Shown here piece after piece: positions 4,265 to 46,054 of a DNA stretch of 46,054 nucleotides. The position numbers and the translations under genes are program-made. How positions within the stretch are numbered: position 1 is the stretch's first letter; the number at the start of each line of letters is the position of its first letter. Below the pieces are notes generated by a model. That model was not told where the DNA came from and did not search any database. It saw nothing but the letters and a program-made list of their open reading frames with translations. Origin of the DNA: a virus. The stretch spans positions 1-46,054 of the IMG/VR virus record IMGVR_UViG_3300009537_000029; one strand, given 5' to 3'.

Positions 4265-4294
4265 GATGTTTATTTGTTTATTATTTTGATAATT

Positions 4295-5815: not shown

Positions 5816-5831
5816 TTTGTTTTTAGTTTTA

Positions 5832-6350: not shown

Positions 6351-6358
6351 GATGTTTA

Positions 6359-7666: not shown

Positions 7667-7667
7667 G

Positions 7668-9043: not shown

Positions 9044-9054
9044 TTTATTTTAGT

Positions 9055-9633
9055 TTAACAACAAGAATTAGAATCACACATTGAGGTTAATTTATCAAGA
9101 TATTTTTGAATATCGTTAAGATTTCCACAGCACTCTGCACTTTTGAGAAGCCGCATATACAAAGAAAAGCATTTAAAAGAATCTTCAATATCATTACATG
9201 AACAAGAGCAGTCGGCAAGTGTGGCAGCTTTTTCCTGATAACAAACGGCTATACTGTTCCTTAAAGTTTCATATCTTGTTGTGCTTGTGCTGAAAGCTGT
9301 TCCTCCCGAAACCCCTGTTACTGTATAAATAAATCTATAAATACCATCAGGATAGGTAGCGGCAGTTACTCCATCAGTTGCTGTTATGTCAAATTCACCT
9401 GCCGAGTTAGATGGCAATGTGGAGTAAGCGTCAATAGTGGTGTCTGTGCCGAATGTCCCATCTGCGTTTCTTTTGGCTATTTTAACAGTAGCGGTTAAAG
9501 CATCTGAAATTTCAGGGTTGGGAGTTCCGAACCCCCCTACATTTAGACCAGAGTATGCTCCGGTCTTGTCTATGATGGTCAGTATTGCCCCATCAGAGGA
9601 GAGGTCAATATTAAAGGCGAGCGCAAGTGCCAT
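9055..9633 (-). CDS. Cysteine-rich tail appendage protein (192 aa)
   Basis: A 192-aa protein with an N-terminal beta-sandwich-like region (about 1-130, containing NADGTFGTDTT and YPDGIYRFIYTVTG) and a helical, cysteine-rich C-terminus. The last 62 residues hold eleven cysteines, including CSCSC, ECCG and SCC. These could coordinate metal or form disulfides in the mature virion. It is the first gene of the appendage run and has its own good promoter box at 9650-9657, 17 nt upstream of ATG, with the leader CTAAAACTAATGTAAA. Function unknown. Confidence 0.65.
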   Translation of the reverse strand: MALALAFNIDLSSDGAILTIIDKTGAYSGLNVGGFGTPNPEISDALTATVKIAKRNADGTFGTDTTIDAYSTLPSNSAGEFDITATDGVTAATYPDGIYRFIYTVTGVSGGTAFSTSTTRYETLRNSIAVCYQEKAATLADCSCSCNDIEDSFKCFSLYMRLLKSAECCGNLNDIQKYLDKLTSMCDSNSCC

Positions 9634-15700: not shown

Positions 15701-17647
15701 AAAGGGCTTTGCGGCTTCGGTGGGTTTTGCTTCTTCTGCTTTTGTTAATTTTCTTAATCCTGCCTTATCAATTACATTTTGAAGTTCACCCTTTGAAAGT
15801 TGCTCGGAAACAAATTCATACAACTTTATTTCATCGGGAGTTATCGGCTCTTTGTTTTGCAGTTTATCTGACAACTTTTCTGCAACATCAACAATCCTCT
15901 CTTTAGCATTTGTTTCCAATTTTTCTATTAATGCGGGGTCAGAAACAGTAGCTTTTGTCTTTAAATTCTCCCATTCTTTGCCTCTTTTCACAAAAGCCCC
16001 TTCTGGCACAAATGCTGATTTTTCGTGTTTGCCGATTTTATTCATTGCCTTGTGCGCTCCGCCCATAAGCAGCCCAACAAATGCAATATCCCCAATGGTT
16101 GATAAATCTCCTGGCTCATAACCCATTGCCTCCACAGCTTTTGATATAGGGGCAAAAAGTAAGTGCTCCACATCTTCGCCATAAGGTAATTCCTGTAATC
16201 CTGCACTTGCTCCTGTAAATCCCCATCCAACAGGTGTAACTGCCATAATACCAGCTATCCCTGCCTCCATTGAACCCTTTAATACTTTTATCGGGTCTCC
16301 CTTCTCAAATCCTTTTGCAATTTCTTTTCCGCCCTCTGTAACGCCTTCTATTCCGGCTCTTGCTATATATGCCACAGGATTCATAATAAGTCCCGCTACG
16401 CCTGCCTTTTGGGGGTTAAAAAGCAAATCATCTATGGCTTCCGAGAAAGCGGTAGCGTGTTGCCAATCTTTAATATTTGCTGATGCTATGGTTGGTGGTT
16501 GTTCCCCTTCGGTAAATTCAACAGATTCTCCTTCTGTTATTGCCTTTGTTCTCTCCTCAAATAATTTTTCTTTTGCAGTTTGCTCATCCTTTTTGGTGGA
16601 TATTTTTAATCTACGAGCATTATTGAAATCCTTTTTATATTGCTCTTTAAAATATTCTTGGTCAATTTCTTCTGTCGCAGGGTCGCCTTCTCCATTTATT
16701 ATATCAATATATTGTTGAGCAAGTGTTTTGTTTTCCGATAACTTACCCCATATTTTTGTGCGTTGCTCATAAATATTCGTCAACAACGCCTTGTCTTTTG
16801 TTTTTCCTGCTATTATAGCACCTTGCTCTAAATCTTTTAGCGCACCAGGATAATCTTCTACCCTTTGTTTGTAAATAGCTCTATTATGATAAAGTTCTCC
16901 CTTGTCGGGATTGTTTTCAATAGCGTCATCCATAATAGATAAAGCCATTGGTGTTTGTCCTGTATTTCCATAAACATAAGCAAGCCCCGTATAGGCAGAA
17001 GCCATTTGCGGATTCTTGGCTATTATCTTCTCATATCTATCTCTTGCATCTGTATATCTTCCAAGTTCCGACTCTCCCACCGCCGCCGCGTATTGCCAAT
17101 CTTCATTATCTGGATTTCTTTTTAATTGCTCATTTGCTATCCTTAATGTTTTTGCCGAATTAAACATTTTATCCCCTTCCGCTTTTAGGTCTGCCCAATC
17201 ATTTATGTCATATCCCGCTTTTTTAAGGACAGGAAACATCTTCTTATATAAATCATTTCTCCTATCCTCTCCATTCTGGAAGTCATAAATTTCGCTATTA
17301 TCAACAAACGCCTCTTTAAGAATATCGCTTATTTTCTCTTTTTCATTAACGCCCTTTGTCGTTTCGGTAGGGGGTGGCGTAATTGTTACCTGTAAAGTGG
17401 GGGCGGGTTTCAGTTCCGCCTTAGATGGCTTTATCTCATCAAAAGAATACTTATATTCAGTCGGCGAGATAGATTCTGATACGGATTCTTCTGCACCAGC
17501 GGAGGGCTCTAAGGAAGGTTGTTTTAAATCTTTTTTTTTTAATGGGATGCCAAACTCATCAACTTCTTGTGATGATGGCTCCGCAACGGATACCCCACCG
17601 CCTTTTATAAGTATTCCAAATTCATCATATTTTTTATTGTCTGGCAT
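9707..17647 (-). CDS. Giant polyvalent ejection (internal virion) protein (2646 aa)
   Basis: A 2646-aa multidomain protein. Visible parts in order: two DEFGI-containing segments at the N-terminus; TPR-like helical repeats (about 170-300); hydrophobic Gly/Ala-rich segments (about 412-490 and 515-530); a GNAT-like acetyltransferase fold (about 708-806, with KETERGKGAGSKVLETV as the acetyl-CoA loop and FYERNGF at the end); a DdrB/ParB-like domain (about 868-1020, with NPKHHIAGAQPKERSD and VIQGNNRSIGL); then about 1600 residues mainly of charged helices, with one further hydrophobic stretch near residue 2290 (LLPVMGTLLGLTAYNYG). Long multidomain proteins of this type are injected with DNA in several phages. 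It follows two smaller proteins as T7 gp16 follows gp14 and gp15. Start overlaps the upstream stop (TAATG). Confidence 0.82.
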   Translation of the reverse strand: MPDNKKYDEFGILIKGGGVSVAEPSSQEVDEFGIPLKKKDLKQPSLEPSAGAEESVSESISPTEYKYSFDEIKPSKAELKPAPTLQVTITPPPTETTKGVNEKEKISDILKEAFVDNSEIYDFQNGEDRRNDLYKKMFPVLKKAGYDINDWADLKAEGDKMFNSAKTLRIANEQLKRNPDNEDWQYAAAVGESELGRYTDARDRYEKIIAKNPQMASAYTGLAYVYGNTGQTPMALSIMDDAIENNPDKGELYHNRAIYKQRVEDYPGALKDLEQGAIIAGKTKDKALLTNIYEQRTKIWGKLSENKTLAQQYIDIINGEGDPATEEIDQEYFKEQYKKDFNNARRLKISTKKDEQTAKEKLFEERTKAITEGESVEFTEGEQPPTIASANIKDWQHATAFSEAIDDLLFNPQKAGVAGLIMNPVAYIARAGIEGVTEGGKEIAKGFEKGDPIKVLKGSMEAGIAGIMAVTPVGWGFTGASAGLQELPYGEDVEHLLFAPISKAVEAMGYEPGDLSTIGDIAFVGLLMGGAHKAMNKIGKHEKSAFVPEGAFVKRGKEWENLKTKATVSDPALIEKLETNAKERIVDVAEKLSDKLQNKEPITPDEIKLYEFVSEQLSKGELQNVIDKAGLRKLTKAEEAKPTEAAKPFTEVKGLIPFTELADISKKEKAGTELTAEEVKLKETYPDEYKAETERKSKGVPSEPAADKNYNIAQEVNKKIAEEHPSVSVLITPKGEDLSMTGLFVKETERGKGAGSKVLETVKSEADRTGKKVTLTATDEFGGDIKRLNEFYERNGFTKVGENKFEYNPKQPTPKPTEAPKAEVKPAEVPVGEKVVPKKRELLAENIEARNEPITNVPEGSKGETKFTADVSVPITYKLIESESLQPSHLPSGERNPKHHIAGAQPKERSDVASKLAQDKIAKNPNFEEVSGSPNAYFGTPIINERGEVIQGNNRSIGLKKHYENKGNQYKADLIANAEKYGLTKEQVEGMKNPILVREVKVTDSEAVSLGQHDVKDIETGGKQHIDPISTSRKMTPEDKSKLSSILFSGEYATAKEAIRASANKIKAIIKGYLNPAQIKNAFSEEGFTAKGMDDIQGMVTHFLFEDGKAVLPELFESLPDNIQKGLQKSMPNILAVEKKSSLLPEIQNAIIAIAEFKNQGLGKFNEWSNTVDMFKGATPKDVFTEFELTLAKKLLDAKNQAEIKRIFAEYEQSIKGKEATLLEEKIEGISKAEAIQKQFDVKYETTIPERHPSPAPKTGELGTVPREKPLAKEKPAEEVKPPAEPAPKVEAKPLTETEQSFKVLEDARAAFRKKMGLGMGAPLQAIPEFIAVVKAAIKAGYLTAKDFIRDFRDDFVKYKDEEIEAAFNEVKGKEKEILVEAKDKIKEQKEALRKAEAISVPAKPSEIKAAVKEITKPEQKKITITEKEALKKQLRDIAKGAKIGAREGKKTEKERVSDIQSFQKEAIDFIDKSEILDKGQKDALKLRAKNIKTFPALEKYFDYADKVIEDAGYANRITDIRKLQSTAAKRKHPSFDKAVKDFLNINPENIPNNLLDKYTKALDEIGGRVPDYKTMQEIYYDIEQAKIKPDTYSNIKTYEKAVEKYNDIALNKVQSIEDYRKLFKDINSFKRKVNELHERGDITEQEFNDLIEQVGKDQKAVESKYASEITSLKTDLINELKGSIKSIGLDNITAENKKLLDRFENLDNNDLRNLSPEELYNLRSILDNAIEDGYVDAFRLNPIIAKAEAITESKAVISQIDKAKPFKQNVKDVVAKLGTLTSSFWEGSMGLGKVVYGAFQKSIVAPVQRAAGGYIGFVNKGQDNFIKLKKKYGIKSDQMNRIGMVAMYLREYALQHNPKYKGKKDRRGNKLGTRDWFKHILESEYERTKLSKDELKSIQNAWDLIRKKDSVSPNDVYNSFVNGTTEFLSKNEMEFLKDVKKWKDENMTGKQRFANEVRGMPFEELLFHIKRIRKGGKEAQGAMPFEMTDKGNVKLAAGSGKQVLTEEMGVVETNFEKIFTETLEENARDYYFTPMLQKVNAVIKNTKENLPENKKAYMDVAAQNLQHSLNNEFVSSKISPVVRNLMKAKAAQILIAPIRTVVELVSSVLAYPARAKAMNSYIELFKPRKAVRKLLEDTESSLTNRKNLNKHIELEKGTIQPKGFIEKSTHYLAALPELLGLEPVWMATFKNRFKEQTGVSFSESEYLSNTQYKNRFNKQILDAASTADATYEKIAGSTTGTGQIRTTKILPSKISKAMGLGEGLDAKKSSGAIMSFMTGYTQREILQAYDSFSAFRQAAKDAEYSKGDVAKTLLPVMGTLLGLTAYNYGQQISYALTQMLIGDDDDKEKAKEELEKLTTANGVFTEMGVGIVALGASKYRGMGRQLLKLAGSVYYNYADTPEDKAYAKSIVRNITYSNPFSIKESGYMGKEKIALEIGDAIAPIATIIDNFNKEISSVGGAKYLYEKVKNGEILTEPEKEAVLLMQLSVNTFNAIAMWGGKAIPNTFVNKIARGYTKGEIDEIKKAISAQKKEKGLLNQKAEKIFNEIKDLPKSQQELSILIYKSKDRALYDKLLEDIDAPEKLEYKDRLIKQLGIENEARAKYISNKTQDMDAAEKFQYIKDLKKKKIITKEVEKQINKLKFQK

Positions 17648-19005
17648 TAGTCAATAATTTCTACCCCTTTTTCAATTAGCAATTTCTCGTATTCTTTGTT
17701 GGAATATCCTGCCGCTTTTGCTTTAGCTGAAATATCAGACCGATTAATTGTTTTTGATTTCTCATCTTCCAATCCTTCAAGTGTTATTTTTTTCTGCTCC
17801 AATACTGACTTTATTGCTTCGTAATCTATGTATTTCGGTTCTCCTTTAGATGTTGTTCCGCTTGCGAATTTTTTCCACTTTACTTGCTTTGAAAATTGTT
17901 TCGCAATTTTATCTCTTATGGGCTTGCCTTTTATTGTTGGTAGTTCAATTATGCTTGAAATTTTAAAATCCTGCGCTCCTACAATGCGTTCAGATTCCCA
18001 TGTGGTCGGGTCGAATGTTTCAATGGTTTCTTTTTGAATAGGAATAGTGGTTTTTAATTCCCATGTGTTTCGTGCTGTTACCTCTCCTTCTACGAACCCT
18101 ACCTGTTTGCCATCTTCGATTGTCGGAATATTTATATTTATTGTCTTATTAGTAACAGGTGTTACTGAATATTTTGAGGTTGCGCCTTCTTTGCCGCCTG
18201 TTTTTAATGGTGCAGCTTTTTCGCCAAATAATCCAAAATATGCTGGCTTAAATTCTTCATCTGCTGCCTTTTCCGCTTGCTCTCTTGTGTTGCCTTTTGT
18301 CATCCAATTTACAATAGTTGCGTTCCACTCAGGGCTTGCTTGTTTGAATGTTTCCCATGATGATTCCTGTGTTTTAATGGGGACAGCAGCCCCTCCTGTT
18401 GCAGTTGGATGTATTCCTTGTTTCGCAGCCCATCCAGACATTGCTCCTAATAGTTTTGGCATATCCGGTTCGGGTTCATTTGCTGTTATTGCGCCATAAG
18501 TATAAACACCTGTCCCCCCCGTTAATTTATCCCACGCCTCTTTATCGTTCTTGCCTACCGCATCCGTCCATTGCGTTTGCAATGAAAATGATTTTGGATT
18601 TTGAACGCCTTTTTCTACATCCTTTAAATACGCCTCTGAACTTATCCTGTCTCTGGCGGTAATTTGTTTTAGGTCAAACCTCATAGTGTCGAGTTCGCTA
18701 TCCTCATAAGGATTATAGTTGGGATTTGAAGCTATATTCTTTTTTACATGGTCAATTATAGCTGCACTCATGGCTTTTGAATTTCCTTGTAATGGAGCAA
18801 TAATACCTTCTACGTTAAATTTACCTAAGTCATTTCTATATTTATCTTGTAATCCTTTGCTTTTTTGCGCTGCCTTCTTCGCCGCATCAATAGCATCTTG
18901 CTCCTCTTGCCTTCGTCTTGAAATTTCTTCAAGGGGAAATTGATTAGATGGCAGCTTAAATCCGAGCGATATTGCCTGTCCGAGTGATGGGGTGGGTGTT
19001 GCCAT
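17647..19005 (-). CDS. Putative internal virion/ejection protein (452 aa), gp15-like by position
   Basis: A 452-aa charged, helix-rich protein with no recognised enzymatic motif. It starts MATPTPSLGQAISLGFKLPS and has a long amphipathic helix at about residues 25-60 (EEISRRRQEEQDAIDAAKKA). The middle is mixed alpha/beta and the C-terminus ends in a KEYEKLLIEKGVEIID helix. It lies between a small Ala/Gly/Gln-rich protein and the giant 2646-aa protein, with one-base stop/start overlaps on both sides, the same order as T7 gp14-gp15-gp16. An ejection-complex role is inferred from this order only. Confidence 0.65.
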   Translation of the reverse strand: MATPTPSLGQAISLGFKLPSNQFPLEEISRRRQEEQDAIDAAKKAAQKSKGLQDKYRNDLGKFNVEGIIAPLQGNSKAMSAAIIDHVKKNIASNPNYNPYEDSELDTMRFDLKQITARDRISSEAYLKDVEKGVQNPKSFSLQTQWTDAVGKNDKEAWDKLTGGTGVYTYGAITANEPEPDMPKLLGAMSGWAAKQGIHPTATGGAAVPIKTQESSWETFKQASPEWNATIVNWMTKGNTREQAEKAADEEFKPAYFGLFGEKAAPLKTGGKEGATSKYSVTPVTNKTININIPTIEDGKQVGFVEGEVTARNTWELKTTIPIQKETIETFDPTTWESERIVGAQDFKISSIIELPTIKGKPIRDKIAKQFSKQVKWKKFASGTTSKGEPKYIDYEAIKSVLEQKKITLEGLEDEKSKTINRSDISAKAKAAGYSNKEYEKLLIEKGVEIID

Positions 19006-22270: not shown

Positions 22271-25200
22271 TTATTTTGATTTAATTCTTGCTGAAACTCT
22301 AAATTTTACAATAAAATTTGATAATTTCTGATATATGTTTATGTCAAAAAACATTTTCGCCTTTAAATACTTGCCAAATAATGCTGTCGTGTTGGAACTG
22401 TTAATCCCCGAAGTAGTGGAATCTTTTTTAATAGGAGAGAAGAAGCTATCTTCCCTTGAAGTAAATTCGCTTTGTGTTAAGAAACTTTGATGTTGTTTTG
22501 TGGCAAACTCAAAACGATTAGGAACTATTTCTGAATCAACTCCCATCGCCTCATACCATTTTGTTTCTTCGGGTAATTGGTTAATCACTCCCTCTATAAA
22601 TGCTTTTTCGGTCTGCGACACCCCTGCGTTTAAATACCATGTCAAATAAGAACCTTTGTCGTGTTGGTAAATTTTATCTACGGGGGTTATGGGTCGAGGG
22701 CTTAAATATGTATCTGTCCATTTTAGATAAATCTTTGGAGTAAAAGTTGCATCACAAATAAAGGCGTTCTTAAATTCATTGAATAATATCGTGTATTCGT
22801 TGTAATATGTTCCATCATTTGCTAACTTTTTCCATTTTAAGGGGAATAAATCTGGTTGATTCCCTGTATTGGTTTGCAGGTCTATTGATTCATAAACATC
22901 CCCGAATGTACTGAATGGAGTGCTAATATAAAAAATCTTGTCCCCCGTTTCATATCCTACCGATGAATTCCATGAGCCAAAACTTTGCGCGGCATTTATT
23001 CTTCCCTTTACAGTCCATATTGCATTAGCGTATCTATCATCCCATACTCCGTGTATTCCTTGCCCATCAGCAGGAGTGTCTTGCGAATCTACCCATGTAA
23101 GATTGTTAGCGAAGAATGACTGCATCCCTTTAATATCAGCAATACTTACCGTCCCGTCATATCCGAATCGTAGTGCTTTTTTGAGTTCTGTATTAATCCA
23201 ATAAAATACATCATTGCCTCCCTGACTTTTCCCTCTAATAATAGCCCATTTATGTTTAGAGCCATATCTCGATACTGTTACGCCATCCCTGCTCATTACA
23301 CTTCCGTCTCCTATCAATATCTCTGTAATTCCTTTTACTTCTAACGTGCCTCTGGTGTTAAAATATTTTCGCGTAAATGCTCTTAGCTGCCATGCGAATA
23401 ATTCTCCATTTACGTTGGCATGATGGACAATTTCCCCGAATGATTGATCTGAATCATGGACGTCAAGTGGCAGATAGGTTCTATATTGGTCGGATAAACT
23501 TCCTTGTGGTTTTATTGCGCTCCACCTTATTCGTGCGGGCTGGTCGCTGTCATCTTCTAAGAGAGGGTTAAAAGCAACATCGGATTGTACTTGGTTGCGG
23601 ATGGTGTACCCTTCTTGGTATGCTTCACCAAACGAACCGTCAGTGTTCGATGGGGATGTTAGCCAATCTACCGTAGGGATTCCCGGATAAAGATTGCCTG
23701 TCTGTGAAGGTGATTTTTGCTTCATCTGTGCGTTTATTCTGTTTTGAGAATAAAAAGCTAATCCACCTGCGAAACCATCTATACTGCCATCGGTAGATGG
23801 CGAGTGGCTGGGAAAAGTAGCGGGAAATACTCCTGGAGACCTATGTTTTAAATAATTAAGTTGAGTAAAAGTATCTCCACCAAAAACATCTGTATTCTGG
23901 AATCCTGTTGCTGATGCTGCAATATTCATTCTGTGCCCACAAGTAATGTACGTGGAAAGCGCCACATTGCCGTACTGCTCTGATAAAGGGCTATAATATT
24001 GGTTATAATAGAATGCTCCATCAACTTGTCCAGTCCCCGCAATCTCGTTGAACTCAAGGGTTGTTTCCATTATAAATGATTCCCTTATGCTACAAATAGT
24101 ATAATTTGTGTTAGCAGTAGATATAGAGCCCTCACCTAATCTAAATCTTTTTCTATATATCGTCTCGGACACAAAAGTATGGTCTAATCCATATCCTAAA
24201 AATGTAGCTTCTTTTACTGGAATTATAGCGGGTTTATTGGTAGATGTTGTTCCTAATACACCACTATATTCCGCATAATTAGACTTTATAAAACTTGCCA
24301 CAACTGGGGAGTATCCATTATGGAAATTTACATAATGTGGGTTTCCAAGATTTATCATAACATCCCCATTTGGAGATGTAAAAGATGGAATACTCGTATG
24401 ATTAAATTGAATATCAGGTGAATAAAAAGCGACAATTTTTCTTTCTCGTCCGTAAATATCAAATTCAGAATTACTATATAATGGATTCCCAAGAGAAGCG
24501 CCTGCAAGAGTGCGCCCTGAAATTAATGGAAATTCACCTTTCCCGACATATTTTGCGCTGTAAATATTCGCAGGCAGTGAATCATTTACAACAACCAACC
24601 CGATACTCGGCACGGCATACCCACAAGCAAGAACAGTAGGATTGGAAACCTCCGCTCTTTCAATTTCAATGAAATCAAATATCTCCCTAATAGGTATTCC
24701 GTTTATCTTGTAATCAAAATCTATATTGCTGAAATTAACATAAGGGACATAAACATTTTCTACCACAGCTGGTGATGCGCCCCCATCTGTTAAATCAAAA
24801 TCGGGAAGTCCGACAACTCTCCTTGTAGGGTCATTTGTGGTAGGATTGGTAAGTCCTGCAATAGCAATATTTGTCGCTTCACAATTTATTACAATATCGT
24901 CTATGTGAAAGTTATCGGTGAATCCACCTCCTTTTAAATGCCCTTTTAACGAAAAGCGGTATGTCTCATTGTGCATCAACCCCATATTCGTATTTACATT
25001 TACAGGGTCTTGGTATTCGCCTACTCTTATTGTTCCAGAAACAGCACTCCTTACTGCTGGAATAGATTTCCTTAATATCGAATGTTTAAATGTCTGCGCC
25101 CATGATGAAAAATCAATTTTTTGTTTTGTAGTTAAATTCGACAAAACCATCCTTTTGTCAATAACTGTTATGTTCTTAGCGGTGGCAATCTGCTCAAATA

Positions 25201-26836
25201 TTTGATTGAGCAGTCCTAAGTCAAAATCACTTGTATTAGTTTCAGCCCCTGTATGATTAATGGTTATTGATGTTTGAGTGGAATCCAATGATTCTCTACG
25301 GATATTATATCCTACTATGGAATCTCCTACATAATTTACTCCTATAAGTTCAACATATCTGAAAAGTCCAGGCAATATCTCTGTTATCTCTAATTGATTT
25401 ATTTTAGAGGTTATCGTTTCAGGCGCATCTCCTATGATAAGTGTAGCATCTCCGCCCGTATCGGCTGAATATACGTTTACGGGATTGGTTATATCGCTTG
25501 TAGTGGTCGCGGTTAAACTTTCGGTTAAGAAGCGTGTTGCGTAGCGCCAATTTCCTGATGGTAGCTGACCGCCCGTTTGTAGTTGTTGTAAAAAAGTAAT
25601 CCTCGTTCCACTTTCATTTAGTTGAAGTGCTGATTCTAATAATATGCTTTCATAAGTATAAGAGCCGGTTGAGTTGATTGTAGAAATAATACCATCTCCA
25701 AAGAACGGAGAAGTCCTGAAAAATGGAAGCTTATTTCCATTAACATCATATTCGTAAATATAATAAATAACTCTCGGATCATTAAAGTCATCTGTCCAAT
25801 AGATAGAACTTTTTACCGCTGTTTGTTCGCAATAGGTATCGGGTTGTTTTTTAGTCCTGAACCCCCATTGTTTGGTTCTGCCAAGTCGGGTATAAAGCCA
25901 TGAATCGGTAGAAGCAGTATATTGACCTACCCCTATTTCTCCTATACTTTGGGAATATAGAGTTGTTGTTATTTTGGTTGGAGGAGTGGCAGGGAGTGTA
26001 TGAGAAAAATAATCTTCAAGAACTATTATTTTAGGGGTAAATCCTGTTGTGCTTACTATCCATGTTCCATCTAAAGAAGATAGTGTATTGCCCAATAAAT
26101 TTACTGACTGCCCCGCTGTTAGTCCATGATTTTCAACAAATGTAATCTGATATAAATTTCTTGCCCCTACAAGGGCTAATGCCACACTACTTACAGTTAA
26201 GGTTGTTTTTAGCGGAAGGTTTGTTCCTGTGGTTGACCATACATACAAATCCCCTAATAAATCATAAGAGCCGATTGCATTAAGTTCTCCGGCAAGTGTT
26301 GTATCGTATGCCTCGTAAAGCGTGTTAAATGTCATTGCCGTTCCCGTCCCGTCAGTTGCGCTTATTGTATAATCACTTCCCGCTATTAAATTTAGAGTGA
26401 TGTCAACATAAGTATCTCCCTCGACTACGGTGGCGGAGGAATCCCATACAGTTATTGCCGCTTTTATAACACTTGCCTGCGCTGTAATGGGTTGGTTTCT
26501 TGACCACGTTACGATATAGGGAGTTAAACCATTAACGGGGTCGTTAAATTGAACTCCATTAGAATAAAATAAAAGAGTTGAATCTGGTTCGGGGGGGAGA
26601 ACCGCACTTGTATCTTCGGTATAAAGCCGATATGTCTTGTTTTGAACAGCAACAGAACCTAAGTCGAAAGCAGATACATTTCCGAGCATAGGGATATGGT
26701 CGCGGGTACTTTCGGTATTTCTCGTAAGAGGCAATACATTACGAGCATCAGTATAATTATTGGGGTCGAGTTTTTCGGGTGCGGTGTCCTTATCTAAATG
26801 TCCTGAAAAATCAAGTTTTTGTAATGACCTTGCCAT
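22271..26836 (-). CDS. Tail stabilisation/muzzle-like protein (1521 aa)
   Basis: A 1521-aa, Thr/Asn/Gly/aromatic-rich all-beta protein. The N-terminus (MARSLQKLDFSGHLDKDTAP, then LDPNNYTDARNVLPL) matches the typical opening of the large 'stabilization' proteins of Bacteroidota podoviruses including crAss-like phages, in which this protein closes the tail tube as a muzzle or nozzle. A GLTAGQSVNLLGNT beta motif occurs near residue 245. The C-terminus ends with NIYQKLSNFIVKFRVSARIK. It has its own promoter box 18 nt upstream (26854-26861) and is followed closely by the ring and connector genes. Family assignment is from N-terminal style, size and position. Confidence 0.75.
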   Translation of the reverse strand: MARSLQKLDFSGHLDKDTAPEKLDPNNYTDARNVLPLTRNTESTRDHIPMLGNVSAFDLGSVAVQNKTYRLYTEDTSAVLPPEPDSTLLFYSNGVQFNDPVNGLTPYIVTWSRNQPITAQASVIKAAITVWDSSATVVEGDTYVDITLNLIAGSDYTISATDGTGTAMTFNTLYEAYDTTLAGELNAIGSYDLLGDLYVWSTTGTNLPLKTTLTVSSVALALVGARNLYQITFVENHGLTAGQSVNLLGNTLSSLDGTWIVSTTGFTPKIIVLEDYFSHTLPATPPTKITTTLYSQSIGEIGVGQYTASTDSWLYTRLGRTKQWGFRTKKQPDTYCEQTAVKSSIYWTDDFNDPRVIYYIYEYDVNGNKLPFFRTSPFFGDGIISTINSTGSYTYESILLESALQLNESGTRITFLQQLQTGGQLPSGNWRYATRFLTESLTATTTSDITNPVNVYSADTGGDATLIIGDAPETITSKINQLEITEILPGLFRYVELIGVNYVGDSIVGYNIRRESLDSTQTSITINHTGAETNTSDFDLGLLNQIFEQIATAKNITVIDKRMVLSNLTTKQKIDFSSWAQTFKHSILRKSIPAVRSAVSGTIRVGEYQDPVNVNTNMGLMHNETYRFSLKGHLKGGGFTDNFHIDDIVINCEATNIAIAGLTNPTTNDPTRRVVGLPDFDLTDGGASPAVVENVYVPYVNFSNIDFDYKINGIPIREIFDFIEIERAEVSNPTVLACGYAVPSIGLVVVNDSLPANIYSAKYVGKGEFPLISGRTLAGASLGNPLYSNSEFDIYGRERKIVAFYSPDIQFNHTSIPSFTSPNGDVMINLGNPHYVNFHNGYSPVVASFIKSNYAEYSGVLGTTSTNKPAIIPVKEATFLGYGLDHTFVSETIYRKRFRLGEGSISTANTNYTICSIRESFIMETTLEFNEIAGTGQVDGAFYYNQYYSPLSEQYGNVALSTYITCGHRMNIAASATGFQNTDVFGGDTFTQLNYLKHRSPGVFPATFPSHSPSTDGSIDGFAGGLAFYSQNRINAQMKQKSPSQTGNLYPGIPTVDWLTSPSNTDGSFGEAYQEGYTIRNQVQSDVAFNPLLEDDSDQPARIRWSAIKPQGSLSDQYRTYLPLDVHDSDQSFGEIVHHANVNGELFAWQLRAFTRKYFNTRGTLEVKGITEILIGDGSVMSRDGVTVSRYGSKHKWAIIRGKSQGGNDVFYWINTELKKALRFGYDGTVSIADIKGMQSFFANNLTWVDSQDTPADGQGIHGVWDDRYANAIWTVKGRINAAQSFGSWNSSVGYETGDKIFYISTPFSTFGDVYESIDLQTNTGNQPDLFPLKWKKLANDGTYYNEYTILFNEFKNAFICDATFTPKIYLKWTDTYLSPRPITPVDKIYQHDKGSYLTWYLNAGVSQTEKAFIEGVINQLPEETKWYEAMGVDSEIVPNRFEFATKQHQSFLTQSEFTSREDSFFSPIKKDSTTSGINSSNTTALFGKYLKAKMFFDINIYQKLSNFIVKFRVSARIKSK

Positions 26837-27920: not shown

Positions 27921-30131
27921 TTATTTTTGTTTCGCTTGTTTCATTGCTTCTATCTCTTTGTCCCCCTCATTCTTCATATCGGTTACTCCTATTTTTGTCG
28001 TTGCCTCTATTTTCTTTTTCTGCAATCCTATATCCTCTCTTAAAGCGGTGTCTTGCTGAATACCTTGCTGCCTCTGCGCCTCTGCCTGCATTGCGGCTTG
28101 TTGTTGCATAGCGAACTCCTGTTGTTTCGCTTGTTCTCTTTTTTTCATGCTATATTCCAACTGATTCTCCAATTCTGAATATGTATTGTTTTTCTGCATG
28201 GCAATAAAGTCGAGAATATCAATTTGGTCATTCTGCGCCATCGCTTGTGCGATACTCAATAGTTGGGTTTTCTGTTGTTCGTCAATCATATCTTTTGGAG
28301 ATACCATCACAAGTACGTCCTCAAATAATCTTTTCTTTATAAGTTTAAGCGCTTTAATGCCCCTGTCGCCTACTACAAATGGAGCTGTTTCATCCCCCTC
28401 CCCTTTTGCGTATATTAATTTTCCGAGATTTACGCAGTATTGAAGGTTGATTTCATTAAATTTAAACAGATTTTTATATAAATTAGCATTTCCTGTCATG
28501 GATTGTTGTATAACACCTCTCTGAACGCCCAATCCTATCACCTCCTGTTGCGTTCCTTGCGCTATCTTTGGCAAACTAAGCAATTCCTCCACTCTCTGCT
28601 CTAACGTGCGCCATAGGTTGCTATAATGAACAATAGCATCGTCCAGATTGAAGTCAACCGGATATACCATTGGTTGGTTATTGGTGGGGTCGCCTGATTC
28701 ACCGGTAGTTCCTTCGGAAACGTGTATCCCCATTGTTTTAAGGTCTTGAAGCATTTCCTTTGGCTTAATGCCAACTCCCAATTTATTACCATTAACTACA
28801 TAAGTCCTTCCTATATTTCTTCCCATCAAATCTCTTATCTTGAAGTCAAAAGCATCCATATCGTCAATTAATTGAGCAATAGTGCCAATTATGGAAACAC
28901 CATCTCCAAGCGTAGTGTTTCCTGTCATTACTTTTATGGGAAGTTCGGGTGTTTCCTTCTCATTAATACTTCTCACTACGTTTTCATCGTATCCGTGTTC
29001 AACCAGGAATCTATTTCCAAGTAATACTGCCTTATGGATATCTTGTATCTTATAGTCCCCTTTAGTATTCTTTCTGTCCCTCTCCATGTATTTTCTTCCA
29101 TGCTTATTCTCTTTCATCACATATTCCGTGTCTTTCTCTCCATTCCAAAACATAGTAACGGCGGTGATGGTTGTTTCTCCTGACCTGTTCAAATACCATG
29201 TCATGTTGCTGGTATTGTATGTCTGAAATATTCCATCAGCAAAATCTCCTCCTCTTGCAATTTCTTTTATCTCCTCTTTTTCATCAGGAGTTAAATTGGG
29301 ATAGCGCTTAAATATTTCAGGAACCGTCAATCTTTCTATAAACCCACAAAATCTTCCATCCCTTACAAATGGGTCATCGCTTGTAATATCCCATATAAGA
29401 TTGTAAAATGGAATCTTTTTTTGCTTTATCCTTCCGTTCTCTACATAATTATAAACTCCCATAAAATTTGCAGGAGCGTAATCTTGCTTAAATGCTTCGA
29501 TGTATAGCGTATCACTATCATTGGAGTATTCTACATATTTTCCTATTTCTGTTGCCGCTACTTCTAAATCATCCTTAAATGAATAGGTTAACCATTGTTC
29601 CGCTTGTTCTTTGGTGTCAAATTTTTTCCCAAGAGGAGGATTGTATTGTATTCCCATTTCAGCAAGTTCATCAAATATTTTTAATGCCTGCGAATCGTAC
29701 TGAAGCATCGTGTCTTGCCACATATTCATTTTCTCGGTAACAGCTCTCTCCGATAATGACCTGGCGGATATATCCTTATTTTCAAATTGTTTAATAAGGA
29801 TGCCAGCCATTCTGTCCATTAGGTTTTTGACTTTTTTTGCCTTAATCCACATCGCCTGCAATGTATTGCCGTCGGTGTCGGTGGTAATGTGATTGTAATT
29901 TATATTACGCTGCTTGCCTATGTTATAAAGGGCATATTGGATTCCCCTTTGAACAGGAGATAAATTCTCTATATAATCATCCTTATTCCATATAGGGTAG
30001 GGTCTGTCATAAAATGTAGTAAAATATCTTATGTTTGACATCCACCATTCCTTCGTTTTTTCACTCTCAGGAATATCTTGAGGTGGTTGTTGGTATAAAG
30101 GAGGGTTAGCCGGAAGTATAAAAGTGCCCAT
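27921..30131 (-). CDS. Portal protein (736 aa)
   Basis: A 736-aa portal protein, counting from ATG at 30131-30129 (MGTFILPANPPLYQQPPQD). The frame is open eight codons further upstream to a TTG at 30155, but those codons overlap a terminator hairpin, so the ATG is preferred. Features: an N-terminal region with WWMSNIRYFTTFYDRPYP; a clip/wing part with KIPFYNLIWDITSDDPFVRD; a long stem-like helix near AIVHYSNLWRTLEQRVEELL; and a C-terminal Gln-rich coiled tail (QQEFAMQQQAAMQAEAQRQQ). Portals form the dodecameric DNA entry ring and carry the tail. Size and layout suit portals of Bacteroidota podoviruses. It lies downstream of the capsid genes. Confidence 0.85.
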   Translation of the reverse strand: MGTFILPANPPLYQQPPQDIPESEKTKEWWMSNIRYFTTFYDRPYPIWNKDDYIENLSPVQRGIQYALYNIGKQRNINYNHITTDTDGNTLQAMWIKAKKVKNLMDRMAGILIKQFENKDISARSLSERAVTEKMNMWQDTMLQYDSQALKIFDELAEMGIQYNPPLGKKFDTKEQAEQWLTYSFKDDLEVAATEIGKYVEYSNDSDTLYIEAFKQDYAPANFMGVYNYVENGRIKQKKIPFYNLIWDITSDDPFVRDGRFCGFIERLTVPEIFKRYPNLTPDEKEEIKEIARGGDFADGIFQTYNTSNMTWYLNRSGETTITAVTMFWNGEKDTEYVMKENKHGRKYMERDRKNTKGDYKIQDIHKAVLLGNRFLVEHGYDENVVRSINEKETPELPIKVMTGNTTLGDGVSIIGTIAQLIDDMDAFDFKIRDLMGRNIGRTYVVNGNKLGVGIKPKEMLQDLKTMGIHVSEGTTGESGDPTNNQPMVYPVDFNLDDAIVHYSNLWRTLEQRVEELLSLPKIAQGTQQEVIGLGVQRGVIQQSMTGNANLYKNLFKFNEINLQYCVNLGKLIYAKGEGDETAPFVVGDRGIKALKLIKKRLFEDVLVMVSPKDMIDEQQKTQLLSIAQAMAQNDQIDILDFIAMQKNNTYSELENQLEYSMKKREQAKQQEFAMQQQAAMQAEAQRQQGIQQDTALREDIGLQKKKIEATTKIGVTDMKNEGDKEIEAMKQAKQK

Positions 30132-30140
30132 GTAGTTCTT

Positions 30141-30171
30141 ATAAAAAACCCCCAACTTATATGCTGAGGGC
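30141..30171 (-). terminator. Intrinsic terminator-like hairpin just before the portal start
   Basis: On the minus strand GCCCTCAGC (30171-30163), loop ATATAA, and GTTGGGGGT (30156-30148) form a 9-bp stem with three G-T wobble pairs, followed by TTTTTAT. This fits an intrinsic terminator or attenuator 27 nt after the 349-aa gene and only about 10 nt upstream of the portal ATG. No promoter box is seen between it and the portal gene, so the portal is probably made by read-through. Confidence 0.6.
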
Positions 30172-31283: not shown

Positions 31284-32078
31284 TTACGCTACAACTGGAC
31301 CCGGCGCTAATCCCCCAACACCTATTACATACCAATTTCCATTAGTAAATAAAAGTTCTGCGGAATCTCCTGCATCAGCAAATGTTATATCGGTATAACC
31401 TCCTGCATTAGAAGGTGTCAATGTTCCGTCTCCAGCATCTGTTACCATAACTACTGTCAATCTCTGTCCTTCAACACCATCAGCTAATGTCCAAGCTCCA
31501 CCACCAGTAGAATCACATTCCGCTATTGGTTGGGTTATTGGTACAGCGCCAGAGCCTGCAAGGGTAGATGTTCCACCATGACGAACAAATCCTGAACTGG
31601 ATTCAATAGCTGCTGCGCCTGCATTTCCATCAATTAAAAGCGCCGCTCCCGTAGTCAAGGAACTTGCTACTATGTGTACGGCATCCGCGGTAGTTGCAGA
31701 AGATGTAACAAGTAAAGCTCGTTCTTCTGCCGTGTCTGTAATAGAAAGTGAACCTTCTGATAAAATACCATTTCCTGACGTTAAGGTAAAATTTCCTGCC
31801 GTTCCTACGATATTTCCTGATGTTAAAGTCAAATCGCCAGAAGTCATGTTTACATCGCCAGAAGTAACCAAAATGTCTCCTGCCGTTAAAGTGAGCGCAG
31901 GTGTTCCTGACGCTACCCCAGCAAGTGTTAATGTTGTTGTTGATATTGAACCATCGTTCAGGTCATTCACTATATCAATCATAGGGTTTATATCGCCTGC
32001 CACAACGGGGAGTCCATTCACTCCCGCAACCCTTGTTTTTAGATACCGCTGCGCGGATGTTACTTTTTTTAGTGCCAT
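31284..32078 (-). CDS. Putative head fibre/decoration protein with SGD repeats (264 aa)
   Basis: A 264-aa protein. The N-terminus (MALKKVTSAQRYLKTRVAGV) looks like a capsid-binding anchor; residues about 50-115 contain eight or so short repeats of the form TSG[DN]-x-T-L (ILVTSGDVNMTSGDLTLTSG), suggesting a thin beta shaft; the C-terminal domain (about 170-264) ends WYVIGVGGLAPGPVVA. It is encoded two genes after the major capsid protein, where head fibres and decoration proteins are often found. The gene is preceded by a strong hairpin and an ACTAAAAAAA leader. Confidence 0.62.
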   Translation of the reverse strand: MALKKVTSAQRYLKTRVAGVNGLPVVAGDINPMIDIVNDLNDGSISTTTLTLAGVASGTPALTLTAGDILVTSGDVNMTSGDLTLTSGNIVGTAGNFTLTSGNGILSEGSLSITDTAEERALLVTSSATTADAVHIVASSLTTGAALLIDGNAGAAAIESSSGFVRHGGTSTLAGSGAVPITQPIAECDSTGGGAWTLADGVEGQRLTVVMVTDAGDGTLTPSNAGGYTDITFADAGDSAELLFTNGNWYVIGVGGLAPGPVVA

Positions 32079-32111: not shown

Positions 32112-32145
32112 AGAAGTATGGAGGAGTTTATGCCTCCATACTTTT
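32112..32145. terminator. Strong bidirectional terminator-like hairpin
   Basis: AAGTATGGAGG (32114-32124) and CCTCCATACTT (32133-32143) form a perfect 11-bp stem with an 8-nt loop. On the minus strand the stem is followed by C then a T-rich stretch (CTTTTTTAT). It lies just downstream of the 360-aa gene and upstream of the 264-aa gene, in a 76-nt gap. Confidence 0.75.
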
Positions 32146-35929: not shown

Positions 35930-36208
35930 ATGAGAAAAGAAAAATTAATAGAAGTGCCACAAGTAAAAGAAGTTTCAACAAACGAGGCAAGAGAGATACT
36001 AAAAACTAATATGGAACTTATACAAAACAACATCTCAACTGTTATGGCTTCAAAAAATTTATCTCAAAGCGAACTGGCGAGAGCGATAGAATCGGAGCCA
36101 GGGCATATCAATTACATTCTTAGGAAAAAAAATAAAGGCATAACTATTAAAATGCTTGGCAGAATAGCAAAAGCATTGGATGTTAAATTAATTGATTTGG
36201 TTAAATAA
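35930..36208 (+). CDS. XRE-family helix-turn-helix protein (92 aa)
   Basis: A 92-aa protein with a lambda-repressor-like (XRE, HTH_3) domain at about residues 30-90: SQSELARAIESEPGHINYIL forms helices 2-3 with the recognition helix near GHINYILRK, followed by TIKMLGRIAKALDVKLIDLV, typical of helices 4-5. The N-terminal 25 residues are charged and not part of the HTH. Such proteins bind DNA as dimers and regulate transcription. It heads the terminase operon and sits beside the divergent promoter pair, so autoregulation or control of virion genes is likely. A role as DNA-binding packaging factor cannot be excluded. Confidence 0.82.
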   Translation: MRKEKLIEVPQVKEVSTNEAREILKTNMELIQNNISTVMASKNLSQSELARAIESEPGHINYILRKKNKGITIKMLGRIAKALDVKLIDLVK

Positions 36209-43034: not shown

Positions 43035-43065
43035 CGAATATACATATATATACGAGTTACACAAA
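43035..43065 (-). promoter_or_regulatory. Two-part Bacteroidota promoter (-33 TTTG, -7 TATATTCG)
   Basis: On the minus strand TTTG (43065-43062) is followed after exactly 19 nt by TATATTCG (43042-43035), a one-mismatch form of TAnnTTTG. The 70-aa gene's ATG comes 3 nt later, so the transcript may be leaderless. This is the only case in the window with a clear -33 element at standard spacing. Confidence 0.5.
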
Positions 43066-43191
43066 TGAAACTTATTAACATTTCTTTTGTTGATAACTAC
43101 ATAGATAAATAGTTGCACAAGTGTAACCTTTTACCGTCCTTTGGTGTATAAATAAGAAAAAGAAACACAAACCTTTTAAATCTAAACCACT

Positions 43192-43326
43192 ATGAAAAAC
43201 CAAACCACAACTAACAGAAGCGCGGCGCAAGTTAAGCTTATGAACGGGCTACTAATTGCCGCTGGCATTGCATGGGTTACCTTATTAATAGGAATGTCAA
43301 TATATTTCGGAACCGGGAAAGATTAA
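43192..43326 (+). CDS. Small membrane protein (44 aa)
   Basis: A 44-aa protein: charged/polar N-terminus (MKNQTTTNRSAAQVKLMNGL), one hydrophobic segment of about 20 residues (LLIAAGIAWVTLLIGMSIYF) and a short GTGKD tail. One transmembrane pass is expected. The start is directly preceded by AAACCACT, a shortened form of the leader repeat used by the following genes. First gene of the right-hand plus-strand cluster. Function unknown; a membrane role such as holin or host-envelope modifier is conceivable. Confidence 0.58.
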   Translation: MKNQTTTNRSAAQVKLMNGLLIAAGIAWVTLLIGMSIYFGTGKD

Positions 43327-43330
43327 ACCA

Positions 43331-43370
43331 TTAACCACTAACGCCGCCGGGCATAAAACGGACAAGCACT
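43331..43370 (+). repeat. Intergenic leader repeat, copy A
   Basis: AACCACTAA followed by CGCCGCCGGGCATAAAAC and ending just before the ATG at 43371. A divergent copy of the leader at 43536-43571 and 43874-43909. Confidence 0.65.
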
Positions 43371-43544
43371 ATGAAAAAAGCTCCTAAAACCAAGTATATT
43401 ATTAGAGACAGGGAAGCCGGTAATGTTATTGAAGAATTTGAAACGCTCGACAAAGCTAAAAATTTACTTAAAAAATTTGAGGAATCAGATAAGAAAGAGG
43501 GTATTTTCGAGGATAATTTTTATGAAATCAAAATAAACCACTAA
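43371..43544 (+). CDS. Small charged protein (57 aa)
   Basis: A 57-aa protein starting MKKAPKTKYIIRDREAGNVI, highly charged, with a strand-turn-strand beginning and a helix (TLDKAKNLLKKFEESDKKEG), ending NFYEIKINH. The start follows leader copy A. Its last codons (Asn-His-stop) form the AACCACTAA part of leader copy B, so the repeat extends into coding DNA. Pattern of an x-x-x-V-I-E-E-F strand with a helix suggests a small alpha/beta domain. Function unknown. Confidence 0.6.
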   Translation: MKKAPKTKYIIRDREAGNVIEEFETLDKAKNLLKKFEESDKKEGIFEDNFYEIKINH

Positions 43545-43571
43545 AGCCGGCGGGCATAAACGCACAACACC
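43536..43571 (+). repeat. Intergenic leader repeat, copy B
   Basis: AACCACTAA, then GCCGGCGGGCATAAACGCAC and ACACC directly before the ATG at 43572. Identical at 38 of 39 positions (including ATG) with copy C at 43874-43912. The first nine bases include the stop codon of the preceding gene. Confidence 0.8.
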
Positions 43572-43862
43572 ATGAGAAATAAAAAAATAGTCGCGTTCCA
43601 CATCGGTAGAGGTGGACGCTATTACAACGCCGGACATTTGAGCTATATCGGCGAGTATGAAATAAGTCATTTTATAAACGATTTGTTTATACAGGAAAAC
43701 GGCGAATATTTTGATGGCAGCGAAAACAGCGTAGGATTAACAGAGAAAGAAGTTGAAACAGGCATCGGTAGAATAGATGTTGACGGACTATACGATACCA
43801 CATACTGCAAATTCCTGGACGAATGTAACGAGGAAGAACTCGAATTAATTGCTAAAGATTAA
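43572..43862 (+). CDS. Hypothetical protein (96 aa)
   Basis: A 96-aa protein starting MRNKKIVAFHIGRGGRYYNA. It has a beta-rich Gly/Tyr-containing N-terminal third, then ISHFINDLFIQENGEYFDGS and an acidic C-terminus ending NEEELELIAKD. It looks like one compact domain of a conserved hypothetical family of Bacteroidota mobile DNA, but I cannot name it. It starts right after leader copy B and ends immediately before copy C. Confidence 0.6.
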   Translation: MRNKKIVAFHIGRGGRYYNAGHLSYIGEYEISHFINDLFIQENGEYFDGSENSVGLTEKEVETGIGRIDVDGLYDTTYCKFLDECNEEELELIAKD

Positions 43863-43909
43863 ACCACTAACCAAACCACTAACGCCGGCGGGCATAAACG
43901 CACAACACC
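43862..43909 (+). repeat. Intergenic leader repeat, copy C
   Basis: AACCACTAA occurs twice here (43862-43870 and 43874-43882); the second is followed by the same GC-rich GGCGGGCATAAACGCA segment as copy B, ending at the ATG at 43910. Confidence 0.8.
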
Positions 43910-44098
43910 ATGAAAACTACGAAGCAATACATCAAAGACAGAATCATGAATGATGACAGAACATTAACAGAAGAAAACGCGCAAATATTTGTGGATAAAT
44001 TATTCCCGAATACTGGAATGAACATCATTGTTGAGACGACAGATGAAGACATGAAAGACGAAGCAAAGGGTAAAGTAGGAACGATAATTAACAACTAA
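43910..44098 (+). CDS. Small acidic protein (62 aa)
   Basis: A 62-aa protein starting MKTTKQYIKDRIMNDDRTLT, helical first half with EENAQIFVDKLFPNTG, then a beta strand MNIIVETTDEDMKDEA. Net acidic. The start lies right after leader copy C. No known family; small acidic phage proteins sometimes mimic DNA, but nothing here proves it. Confidence 0.55.
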   Translation: MKTTKQYIKDRIMNDDRTLTEENAQIFVDKLFPNTGMNIIVETTDEDMKDEAKGKVGTIINN

Positions 44099-44135
44099 CT
44101 TCCGCGCTAACACTAACCAATTAAACCACTACATT

Positions 44136-44297
44136 ATGAAATCACAAAATCTTTTTTTCGTTTTTCTCCCTCAAGGTAGGGAGCAAGAACATTATTCTTT
44201 CGGCGGCGTTCTTTACTGCCGAAATCAGAAAGAAGCGCTTGAAATAGCCACCGAAGTCGGCGGTAAGATGTGCGTTTCTCAAATTTGCTTAAATTAA
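44136..44297 (+). CDS. Small hypothetical protein (53 aa)
   Basis: A 53-aa frame starting MKSQNLFFVFLPQGREQEHY and continuing SFGGVLYCRNQKEALEIATE to end VSQICLN. A strand-strand-helix pattern with three cysteines. It is preceded by AAACCACTA (44123-44131), the short form of the leader. Frame quality is natural and it fills an otherwise empty gap between leader-linked genes. Function unknown. Confidence 0.55.
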   Translation: MKSQNLFFVFLPQGREQEHYSFGGVLYCRNQKEALEIATEVGGKMCVSQICLN

Positions 44298-44357
44298 TTA
44301 TTAACCACCACAAAGCCCGAACCCGTGCGCGGATGAAAATAAAGACGCGGTAATAAT

Positions 44358-45557
44358 ATGGAAAATCCAACATTCACACCACGAGAAAACACCCGTATAT
44401 ATAAGAACCATTACGGATGGACAGGAGAAACTAAGTTAAAACAAGACGGCAAAAACTGGAATATTTACACCACCAAGAGGCACGGCGGCACGATTTCCAC
44501 CCATTGCCACGTTGTGACCGATGAGGGCGGGGGAAGTTATTCTTTTACCATGTTTGGGCAAGATAAAAATGAAAGTTTTTATCTTAATGAATTGCCAAAG
44601 GGAACGAAAGCGACCGAGAACACCATAAAAGAAGCGCATTATAAAGCCCTTGCAATGTTTGACGCGAAAAGGGAAGCCGGAGAACTGCCAAACGCTGAAA
44701 AAGAATATAAGATTGAAATAGGGCAAATCCTTTTCACGGATTGCAGAAACGAGCAAACAAGCAGGCGCGCAATTTACGAAATAATCGGAGACGGCAAATA
44801 TAAAACCGTTTTACTCGATGGAAGCGCGACCCGTTACGATGACCATGTACGCAACTACGCTAAAAAATTCGGCATAGGCGTATATTTCAACGAAGGGGAA
44901 ACAATCGAGCAGGCACAAATCGACAACTTGCTGATTCAGGCGCACGAAAAGACAAAGATACGAGAGAAACAAAACGCTATTTTGAAAATAGAGAACGACA
45001 AGAAAGCGGAGGAGAAAAGAAAGTATTTAAGTCAATTTGTAAAAGCAGACAGGCGCATGACTACCAACGTACTGAAAGCGCACATTTTAAAAACCTTTTC
45101 GACCGTTTCAAAGGTAGAAATAAAGACGGACGTTTTCAGCGGAGGCGATAGTATGGATGTTAAATACTACGCACCTGAAAAAATCGAAACTTTGGAAACC
45201 CTTATAAAATCATTCCAAGAGGGGCATTTTAACGGCATGGAGGATATTTATGAATATCACGACAAAGACGAAATAATAATAAGCGGGCATATCTTGCAAA
45301 CGTACAAATACGTTCATTCTAAATTTATTCAGGCAGACACACCACCAACACCACCGGCAACACCTGCGCAAACGGAGGGGGTTCAAGTCCTGGACTATTC
45401 AGAAAAAGCCGTTGCCGTTATTGGTAACACTTATGCGATCAAGGAGCAACTAAAAAAGATGGGCGGACGTTTCAACCGTTTCCTTTCTTGCGGTGCAGGA
45501 TGGATATTTCGCAAAGACAAAAAAGAGGAATTAATACTTTTATTTGTCAAAGCATAA
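44358..45557 (+). CDS. LPD29-domain-like polyvalent protein (399 aa)
   Basis: A 399-aa protein with three visible parts. N-terminus (about 1-115): beta-rich domain with KNWNIYTTKRHGGTISTHCH. Residues about 225-300: a match in pattern to LPD29 (large polyvalent-associated domain): MTTNVLKAHILKTFSTVSKV, then FSGGDSMDVKY and HFNGMEDIYEY. C-terminus (about 348-399): a compact domain, AVIGNTYAIKEQLKKMGGRF followed by RFLSCGAGWIF, commonly found in Bacteroidota mobile-element and phage proteins. A Pro/Thr linker (TPPTPPATPAQTEG) separates the last two. Likely nucleic-acid-related; exact role unknown. Confidence 0.65.
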   Translation: MENPTFTPRENTRIYKNHYGWTGETKLKQDGKNWNIYTTKRHGGTISTHCHVVTDEGGGSYSFTMFGQDKNESFYLNELPKGTKATENTIKEAHYKALAMFDAKREAGELPNAEKEYKIEIGQILFTDCRNEQTSRRAIYEIIGDGKYKTVLLDGSATRYDDHVRNYAKKFGIGVYFNEGETIEQAQIDNLLIQAHEKTKIREKQNAILKIENDKKAEEKRKYLSQFVKADRRMTTNVLKAHILKTFSTVSKVEIKTDVFSGGDSMDVKYYAPEKIETLETLIKSFQEGHFNGMEDIYEYHDKDEIIISGHILQTYKYVHSKFIQADTPPTPPATPAQTEGVQVLDYSEKAVAVIGNTYAIKEQLKKMGGRFNRFLSCGAGWIFRKDKKEELILLFVKA

Positions 45558-45618
45558 CGTATACCCTCTCCCCGCGTTCAGTCGCTAACCTTCAAAGGTA
45601 GGGAGACGGGCAAATATT

Positions 45619-45664
45619 AACCACTAAAAAAAGTCCTCTGATAAAGTAAGGAGGCATAAACACA
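45619..45664 (+). repeat. Intergenic leader repeat, copy D (divergent)
   Basis: AACCACTAA (45619-45627), a variable middle, then GGAGGCATAAACACA ending at the ATG at 45665. It keeps the two conserved blocks but lacks the GCCGGC core and contains a GGAGG Shine-Dalgarno-like segment. Confidence 0.6.
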
Positions 45665-46009
45665 ATGAAAAACCTATCTGATTTTAAAAAAAGAATTTTA
45701 AAGGGGGTAAAAATTCATACCACCTACCACCAAGCCGCTAAAGGAAGGGACGAAAAAGGATTATTAATACTTGCAGACGAGGATAAAGGAAATAGGGAGG
45801 TAAACATAGTACAGGGGAACGCCTTTACCCTATTGACCACAAAGAAAGACGGGAGTATTTCCGATTCGTGGCTACACTTCCCGAAGGCAAGCGAAATAAA
45901 GATAGTAAATGAGAACACCATACAAATTTTGGCGGAAGATTTCCGGATGCCCGCCCCTGAAAGGGAAAACGCGCCCCTTATTCCTTTACTTACTTACACA
46001 TTTATATAA
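45665..46009 (+). CDS. Hypothetical protein (114 aa)
   Basis: A 114-aa protein starting MKNLSDFKKRILKGVKIHTT. A beta-rich middle (GLLILADEDKGNREVNIVQG, then a KDGSISDSWLHFPKASEI segment) is typical of small conserved proteins of unknown function in phages and plasmids of Bacteroidota. It starts after leader copy D and ends directly before copy E. Role unknown. Confidence 0.6.
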   Translation: MKNLSDFKKRILKGVKIHTTYHQAAKGRDEKGLLILADEDKGNREVNIVQGNAFTLLTTKKDGSISDSWLHFPKASEIKIVNENTIQILAEDFRMPAPERENAPLIPLLTYTFI

Positions 46010-46011
46010 CT

Positions 46012-46054
46012 AACCACTAAAACCGGAGACCCCGAGCCGCATAAAGTAGGGGGA
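46012..46054 (+). repeat. Intergenic leader repeat, copy E (cut by window end)
   Basis: AACCACTAA (46012-46020) followed by a GC-rich middle and CGCATAAAGTAGGGGGA at the window edge. A further plus-strand gene probably starts just beyond the window. Confidence 0.55.

Follow-up and report, generated by a model that had tools for sequence, protein, structure and literature searches.

The closest described counterparts of the element reported here are the start-associated sequences (SAS) and Extended SAS (ESAS), repeats of Cluster K mycobacteriophages in which a 13-bp consensus holds the Shine-Dalgarno (SD) core AGGAG, lies 3-7 bp before the start codon and is kept across the phage cluster (PMC3203893). 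An analogue of SAS has been found in Microbacterium phage cluster EF (PMC7302621). Bacteroidota leave SD pairing unused, and A at -3, at -6 and around -12/-13 promotes initiation in them; these positive determinants were measured in Flavobacterium johnsoniae (PMC6847099). Stoperators, which are the repressor sites of Cluster A mycobacteriophages, are distributed genome-wide (PMC6550527). I analysed the IMG/VR virus record IMGVR_UViG_3300009537_000029, whose 46,054 bases are referred to in full as the window, and in it a two-block leader that recurs before a series of small plus-strand genes from 43192 onward. With confidence that is about evenly balanced, this repeat is taken to be a start-associated leader specific to the phage, lying within a single early polycistronic operon; the leader would have been multiplied by duplication and would serve as an SD-independent start signal.

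The first block, AACCACTAA, occurs in exact form on the plus strand at 43333, 43536, 43862, 43874, 45619 and 46012, and only once more in the contig, at 35653 on the minus strand. The second block, GGCATAAA, is exact at 43350, 43553, 43891 and 45653, and a fifth copy at 46038, CGCATAAA, differs from it by one mismatch. The six first blocks in 43101-46054 compare with a mean of 0.03 and a maximum of 1 in 2000 dinucleotide shuffles; this 9-mer was picked after inspection, and any 9-mer, mostly of low complexity, reaches at least six copies in ~3% of such shuffles. Because of that post hoc rate, the strong evidence is positional: AACCACT lies within 60 nt upstream at 7/8 cluster positions (seven genes and the contig tail) versus 0/42 other genes (Fisher 8e-8). 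The asymmetric site AACCACTA has eight exact copies in the cluster, all in a single orientation and at gene junctions, with a variable distance to the ATG. The repeat is thereby confirmed as real and as confined to the cluster. An earlier note, made from the letters of this DNA, had placed the two blocks before the genes at 43371, 43572, 43910 and 45665, and exact copies of both were recovered at each of these leaders; the AACCACT-only forms that it saw before 43192 and 44136 are also there, the former overlapping the ATG.

Copies A (43333-43370), B (43536-43571) and C (43874-43909), all on the plus strand, represent the full unit, AACCACTAA - N - GCCGsCG - GGCATAAA - A/C-rich - ATG, and are homologous end to end. 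In copy A the first block (43333-43341) is followed by a GC mini-stem, the second block (43350-43357) and CAAGCACT before the ATG at 43371; the second block lies at 43553-43560 in B and at 43891-43898 in C. Alignment of B and C including the ATG gives 38 matches in 39 positions, just as the earlier note had counted, with similarity starting at AAACCACTAA and stopping at ATGA. The genes that follow were said to be unrelated, and BLASTP agrees, the best cross-match between proteins behind the leaders having an E value of 0.08; paralogous genes were rejected as the source of the shared leaders, as BLASTP between the cluster proteins finds none. That B and C are nearly the same suggests that the leader itself was recently duplicated or underwent gene conversion.

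The divergent copies D (45619-45664) and E (46012-46045), also on the plus strand, are conserved block by block. Both keep the two blocks (45619-45627 and 45653-45660 in D, 46012-46020 and 46038-46045 in E) and have unrelated spacers, that of D being unrelated to those of A-C as well. The chance of finding GGCATAAA in a shuffled D spacer is 0.003, and that of finding it within one mismatch in a shuffled E spacer is 0.02, so that both copies retain the second block beyond chance. The gene downstream of E lies past the contig end. Three plus-strand copies consist of a first block only: H (43185-43192), in which AACCACTA overlaps the ATG of the gene at 43192-43326; G (44124-44131), 4 nt before the ATG at 44136; and F (44303-44310), a degenerate AACCACCA without a second block, before the gene at 44358. 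An extra AACCACTAA (43862-43870, plus strand) touches the stop codon just before it and lies upstream of copy C. In A, B, C, E and F the first block is found at or close to the upstream gene's stop codon; in G and D it lies farther downstream. In B its last three bases are themselves the stop codon (TAA, 43542-43544) of the preceding gene, in line with the suggestion that the repeat can span a stop-to-start junction. Taken together, the sharp edges of the repeat, the unrelated proteins and the block-wise conservation of the divergent copies uphold the proposal of a leader that is shared over unrelated genes and has probably spread among them.

The cluster starts have the features of SD-independent initiation in Bacteroidota. 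A is present at -3 in 7/7, at -6 in 6/7, at -13 in 7/7 and at -12 in 4/7 of them, and CATAAAC places its AAA at precisely -14 to -12 in copies B and C. Elsewhere in the contig, A occupies -3, -6 and -13 in 57%, 53% and 62% of starts, against a background of 30%. An SD core was found at one of the seven cluster starts, in copy D, which has an SD-like AAGGAGG. Predicted pairing was nominally a little lower around the cluster starts than around other genes (0.34 vs 0.42). The ATG-proximal half of the leader is read as a probable SD-independent initiation region because its A residues at -3, -6 and -13 match the Flavobacterium johnsoniae determinants, which would make the unit a portable start signal.

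The favoured explanation can be put as follows. The full unit would extend from a gene's stop codon as far as the ATG of the gene that follows, and would consist of a stop-proximal AACCACTAA, a short variable GC-rich spacer, (G)GCATAAA, and an A/C-rich stretch ending in ACACC/CACT-ATG. The ATG-proximal half, with its A-run near -12/-14, A-6 and A-3, would act as the SD-independent initiation region and would thereby give each small gene its own start signal. Unrelated genes would have come to share near-identical leaders because the unit was multiplied by duplication, by gene conversion between leaders, or by carriage with incoming genes. Possibly, the position of AACCACTAA beside stop codons would suit termination-reinitiation or factor binding. 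Several observations weigh against this explanation. The A-rich start features are also found in genes without the repeat, and hence leave the conservation of the GGC and AACCACTAA letters unaccounted for. The first block is no fixed-distance ribosome signal, as the gaps between it and the ATG are about -1, 4, 28, 28, 30, 38 and about 47 nt, i.e., from overlapping to well upstream. Copies A-C, being homologous, amount to little more than one observation on selection, and their agreement is not independent. Finally, no homologous phage carrying the repeat was found in the collections searched.

A stronger version, in which the two blocks form an element of a Bacteroidota phage dedicated to SD-independent starts, read by a phage factor or phage-modified host factor that couples termination at one small gene to the next initiation, appears rather unlikely; if true, it would give coordinated control of unrelated early genes. 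The leaders may instead have no regulatory role and be by-products of gene-cassette gain that have not yet diverged, either because a gene was duplicated with its flanking leader or because recombination used the leaders as short homologies. This is doubtful, though a real possibility: B and C match at nearly every position beside unrelated genes, with edges that coincide with gene junctions, the extra AACCACTAA at 43862 resembles a partial tandem duplication, and exchange regions typically contain small orphan genes. Uniform decay would predict neither that D and E keep the blocks and not the spacer, nor that the first block stands alone before the genes at 43192 and 44136. The oriented and asymmetric AACCACTA sites, at their variable distances from the ATG, could also be read as protein- or RNA-binding sites, similar to stoperators or ESAS, through which a phage regulator controls transcription elongation or mRNA fate, and among the proteins of the phage there is at least one helix-turn-helix protein of the Cro/C1 type (35930-36208). 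Such a binding site is decidedly improbable here, given that the copies are confined to one cluster and not distributed genome-wide, that the stoperator consensus is absent and the motif non-palindromic, and that a lysogeny module is not visible in the fragment.

Repeated promoters, for either a host or a phage polymerase, are very unlikely. The leaders of phages B40-8, FCL-2 and 11b do sit behind TAnnTTTG boxes, and the part of the genome that is missing could encode a phage polymerase with its own promoter. Against this, TAnnTTTG is absent from the plus strand of 43051-46054, sigma-70-like sites are no commoner than in shuffles, and the copies occupy short stop-to-start gaps, the first block of G and H being 4 nt before or overlapping the ATG. 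Host promoters were rejected on these grounds. Promoters for a phage polymerase were rejected too, as far as the giant 2646-aa protein encoded at 9707-17647 would be that polymerase: its domains are TPR, GNAT and ddrB-ParB, with no polymerase match. No terminator-like site was found on the plus strand between the cluster genes, which together with the missing TAnnTTTG is consistent with one operon. A structured RNA or an RNA-processing hairpin at each junction is least probable of all and can hardly be upheld, even though A-C (GCC-NNNN-GGC) and D (CCTCT/AGGAGG) have potential pairing at roughly the same place. Over eight leaders, folding stability was at shuffle level (z -0.7 to +0.7), the stem of A-C has only 3 bp and no compensatory change, E folds differently, and a search of the leaders with the Rfam 15 covariance models gave no match up to E = 1. 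Hence, where the earlier note had proposed a shared translation or RNA-level element, the structured-RNA part was not borne out, and a probable translation role is favoured both by the position of the leaders and by their match to Bacteroidota initiation regions.

The strength of the repeat was compared across phages using the best ungapped match between the 45-nt upstreams of unrelated same-strand genes. The window scored 35, the top of ~125 viral contigs, which were drawn from a pattern scan and are therefore a convenience background; the runner-up scored 28 and the great majority at most 15. As positive controls, the right halves of the mycobacteriophages CrimD and Adephagia scored 23 and 38; in both, the most frequent 9-mers upstream were those of the published SAS. 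Bacteroidota phages 11b, FCL-2 and B40-8 scored 36, 25 and 24, and crAss001 scored 15 (first half only).

The genes of the cluster, all on the plus strand and separated by short gaps, begin with gene 1 (43192-43326), which encodes 44 aa with a hydrophobic segment and no family. Gene 2 (43371-43544, 57 aa) and gene 3 (43572-43862, 96 aa) likewise have no family, gene 4 (43910-44098, 62 aa) has no significant family, and gene 5 (44136-44297, 53 aa) has none. Gene 6 (44358-45557) encodes a 399-aa early protein, and gene 7 (45665-46009) a 114-aa protein with a weak relative (26%) in the unrelated phage L129. The contig ends inside this early cluster and lacks terminal repeats.

The left 36 kb carry structural genes, chiefly on the minus strand and including tail fibre proteins, and a terminase (phrog_6681) is encoded on the plus strand. 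Matches to the Crassvirus muzzle (Pfam crAss_MUZ, E 3e-35) and, weakly and below threshold, to the P22 portal fall in the region of the minus-strand genes 22271-26836 and 27921-30155. The phage is taken to be a distant crAss-like podovirus because of the muzzle match, the sub-threshold portal match and its set of structural genes; its terminase and a predicted structural protein have no relatives in the phage collection, which marks it as a deep crAss-like lineage. Seven gene starts have a TAnnTTTG box 12-32 nt ahead of them, where 0.7 would be expected (P 9e-6), and 0/40 non-cluster starts have an SD core; both are Bacteroidota traits and indicate a Bacteroidota-type host. The minus-strand gene at 9707-17647 encodes a polyvalent protein with TPR repeats, a GNAT acetyltransferase-like domain and a ddrB-ParB domain. 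An A-rich stretch, AAACTAAAA, with five copies before late genes, is weaker and is the sole stretch of comparable role elsewhere in the genome. Near 32127, upstream of the minus-strand gene 31284-32078, a terminator-like hairpin, GGAGGCATAAACTCCTCC, is followed by a T-rich stretch; its loop region includes GGCATAAA, which seems coincidental.

Relatives of the leader were looked for at both the protein and the nucleotide level. A protein search of the phage collection with the terminase, the predicted structural protein and gene 43572 returned none. The 399-aa protein has homologues of 41% identity in contigs L126 and L136, of which the L136 homologue matches Prevotella Lak megaphages at ~40% over its C-terminal 60 residues. 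Neither contig shares the portal or has the motif at gene starts, and AACCACTA occurs once in each, in 58 and 71 kb; being related through one protein at 41%, they are too distant to count fairly as the related genomes whose lack of the pattern would, by the earlier note, refute a shared element. The gene junctions of L126 carry a different recurrent text, (C)CCACAAAAA and AATCCTTCAC, a sign that leaders of this kind are lineage-specific. In its early small-gene array (4000-9100), TAACCCACAAAAA / AATCCTTCAC junction text precedes many genes, and in L129, which carries the homologue of gene 45665, repeated AGACGGGAGACTA leaders precede small genes at 4860-5700. Scanning IMG/VR for AACCACTAA-N-GGCATAAA gave single scattered, chance-like matches, with no multi-copy record among the matches listed. 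The specific leader pattern had 0 matches in the public collections searched, and a relaxed GGCGGGCATAAA pattern had five that do not share the leader context. BLASTN of one leader found nothing in phages and weak chance matches in plasmids, including a Phocaeicola sequence without the leader. A widespread mobile leader was rejected on these chance-level results.

Among described systems, the leader resembles SAS and ESAS most: it is a short asymmetric repeat in one orientation, located in a region of small non-structural genes at the starts of unrelated genes, it sometimes includes the upstream stop codon, and some copies have a second conserved element upstream. Its strength is similar to that of SAS in CrimD and Adephagia under the same upstream statistic, and it shares with SAS the single orientation and the confinement to non-structural genes of different families: all cluster copies are on the plus strand, none of 42 other upstreams carries it and the downstream proteins are unrelated. 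There are also differences. The SAS consensus GGGATAGGAGCCC and its EF form GGGAAAGGACCCC have no match with up to two mismatches in the cluster, and the only such site in the contig, at 18380 with two mismatches, lies inside the minus-strand gene 17647-19005. The first block is not 3-7 bp before the start, its gaps ranging from about -1 to about 47 nt, and 6/7 cluster starts lack the AGGAG core. SAS are conserved across a phage cluster, whereas this repeat has been seen in one orphan contig only. By its arrangement the leader would work like SAS/ESAS, and it is not filed under SAS because three defining features fail, namely sequence, start distance and SD core.

The stoperator consensus is a 13-bp GGTGGMTGTCAAG-type sequence. 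The window repeat is asymmetric and oriented like stoperators; in contrast to them, it has another sequence and is not spread over the genome, and no GGTGGMTGTCAAG-type site with up to two mismatches was found in the cluster. The A residues at -3, -6 and ~-12/-13 and the missing SD are shared with Flavobacterium johnsoniae initiation regions (PMC6847099), which are a general compositional preference, whereas the window repeats a leader of 36-46 nt in which two blocks are fixed. Reuse of one 5' leader before several genes is also seen in the Bacteroidota phages B40-8, FCL-2 and 11b, whose unit, in the copies examined, includes or directly follows a TAnnTTTG promoter and is thus a transcript 5' end, while the window unit is intra-operonic and promoterless. 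B40-8 (L140) carries four GTGTCAAAAGGAAACAAATTACTAACA leaders before different genes, near 75, 16780, 18984 and 32550, of which the three that were examined follow TAnnTTTG promoters, and Flavobacterium phages 11b (L138) and FCL-2 (L139) have similar promoter-leader repeats. Several unrelated genes with near-identical leaders would form a compact system for learning what such repeats do, be it translation coupling, factor binding or recombination only. The SAS-type repeats described in actinobacterial phages contain an SD core and their function was left open; a comparable layout in a phage of a host that appears to ignore SD would separate the function of the repeat from SD pairing.

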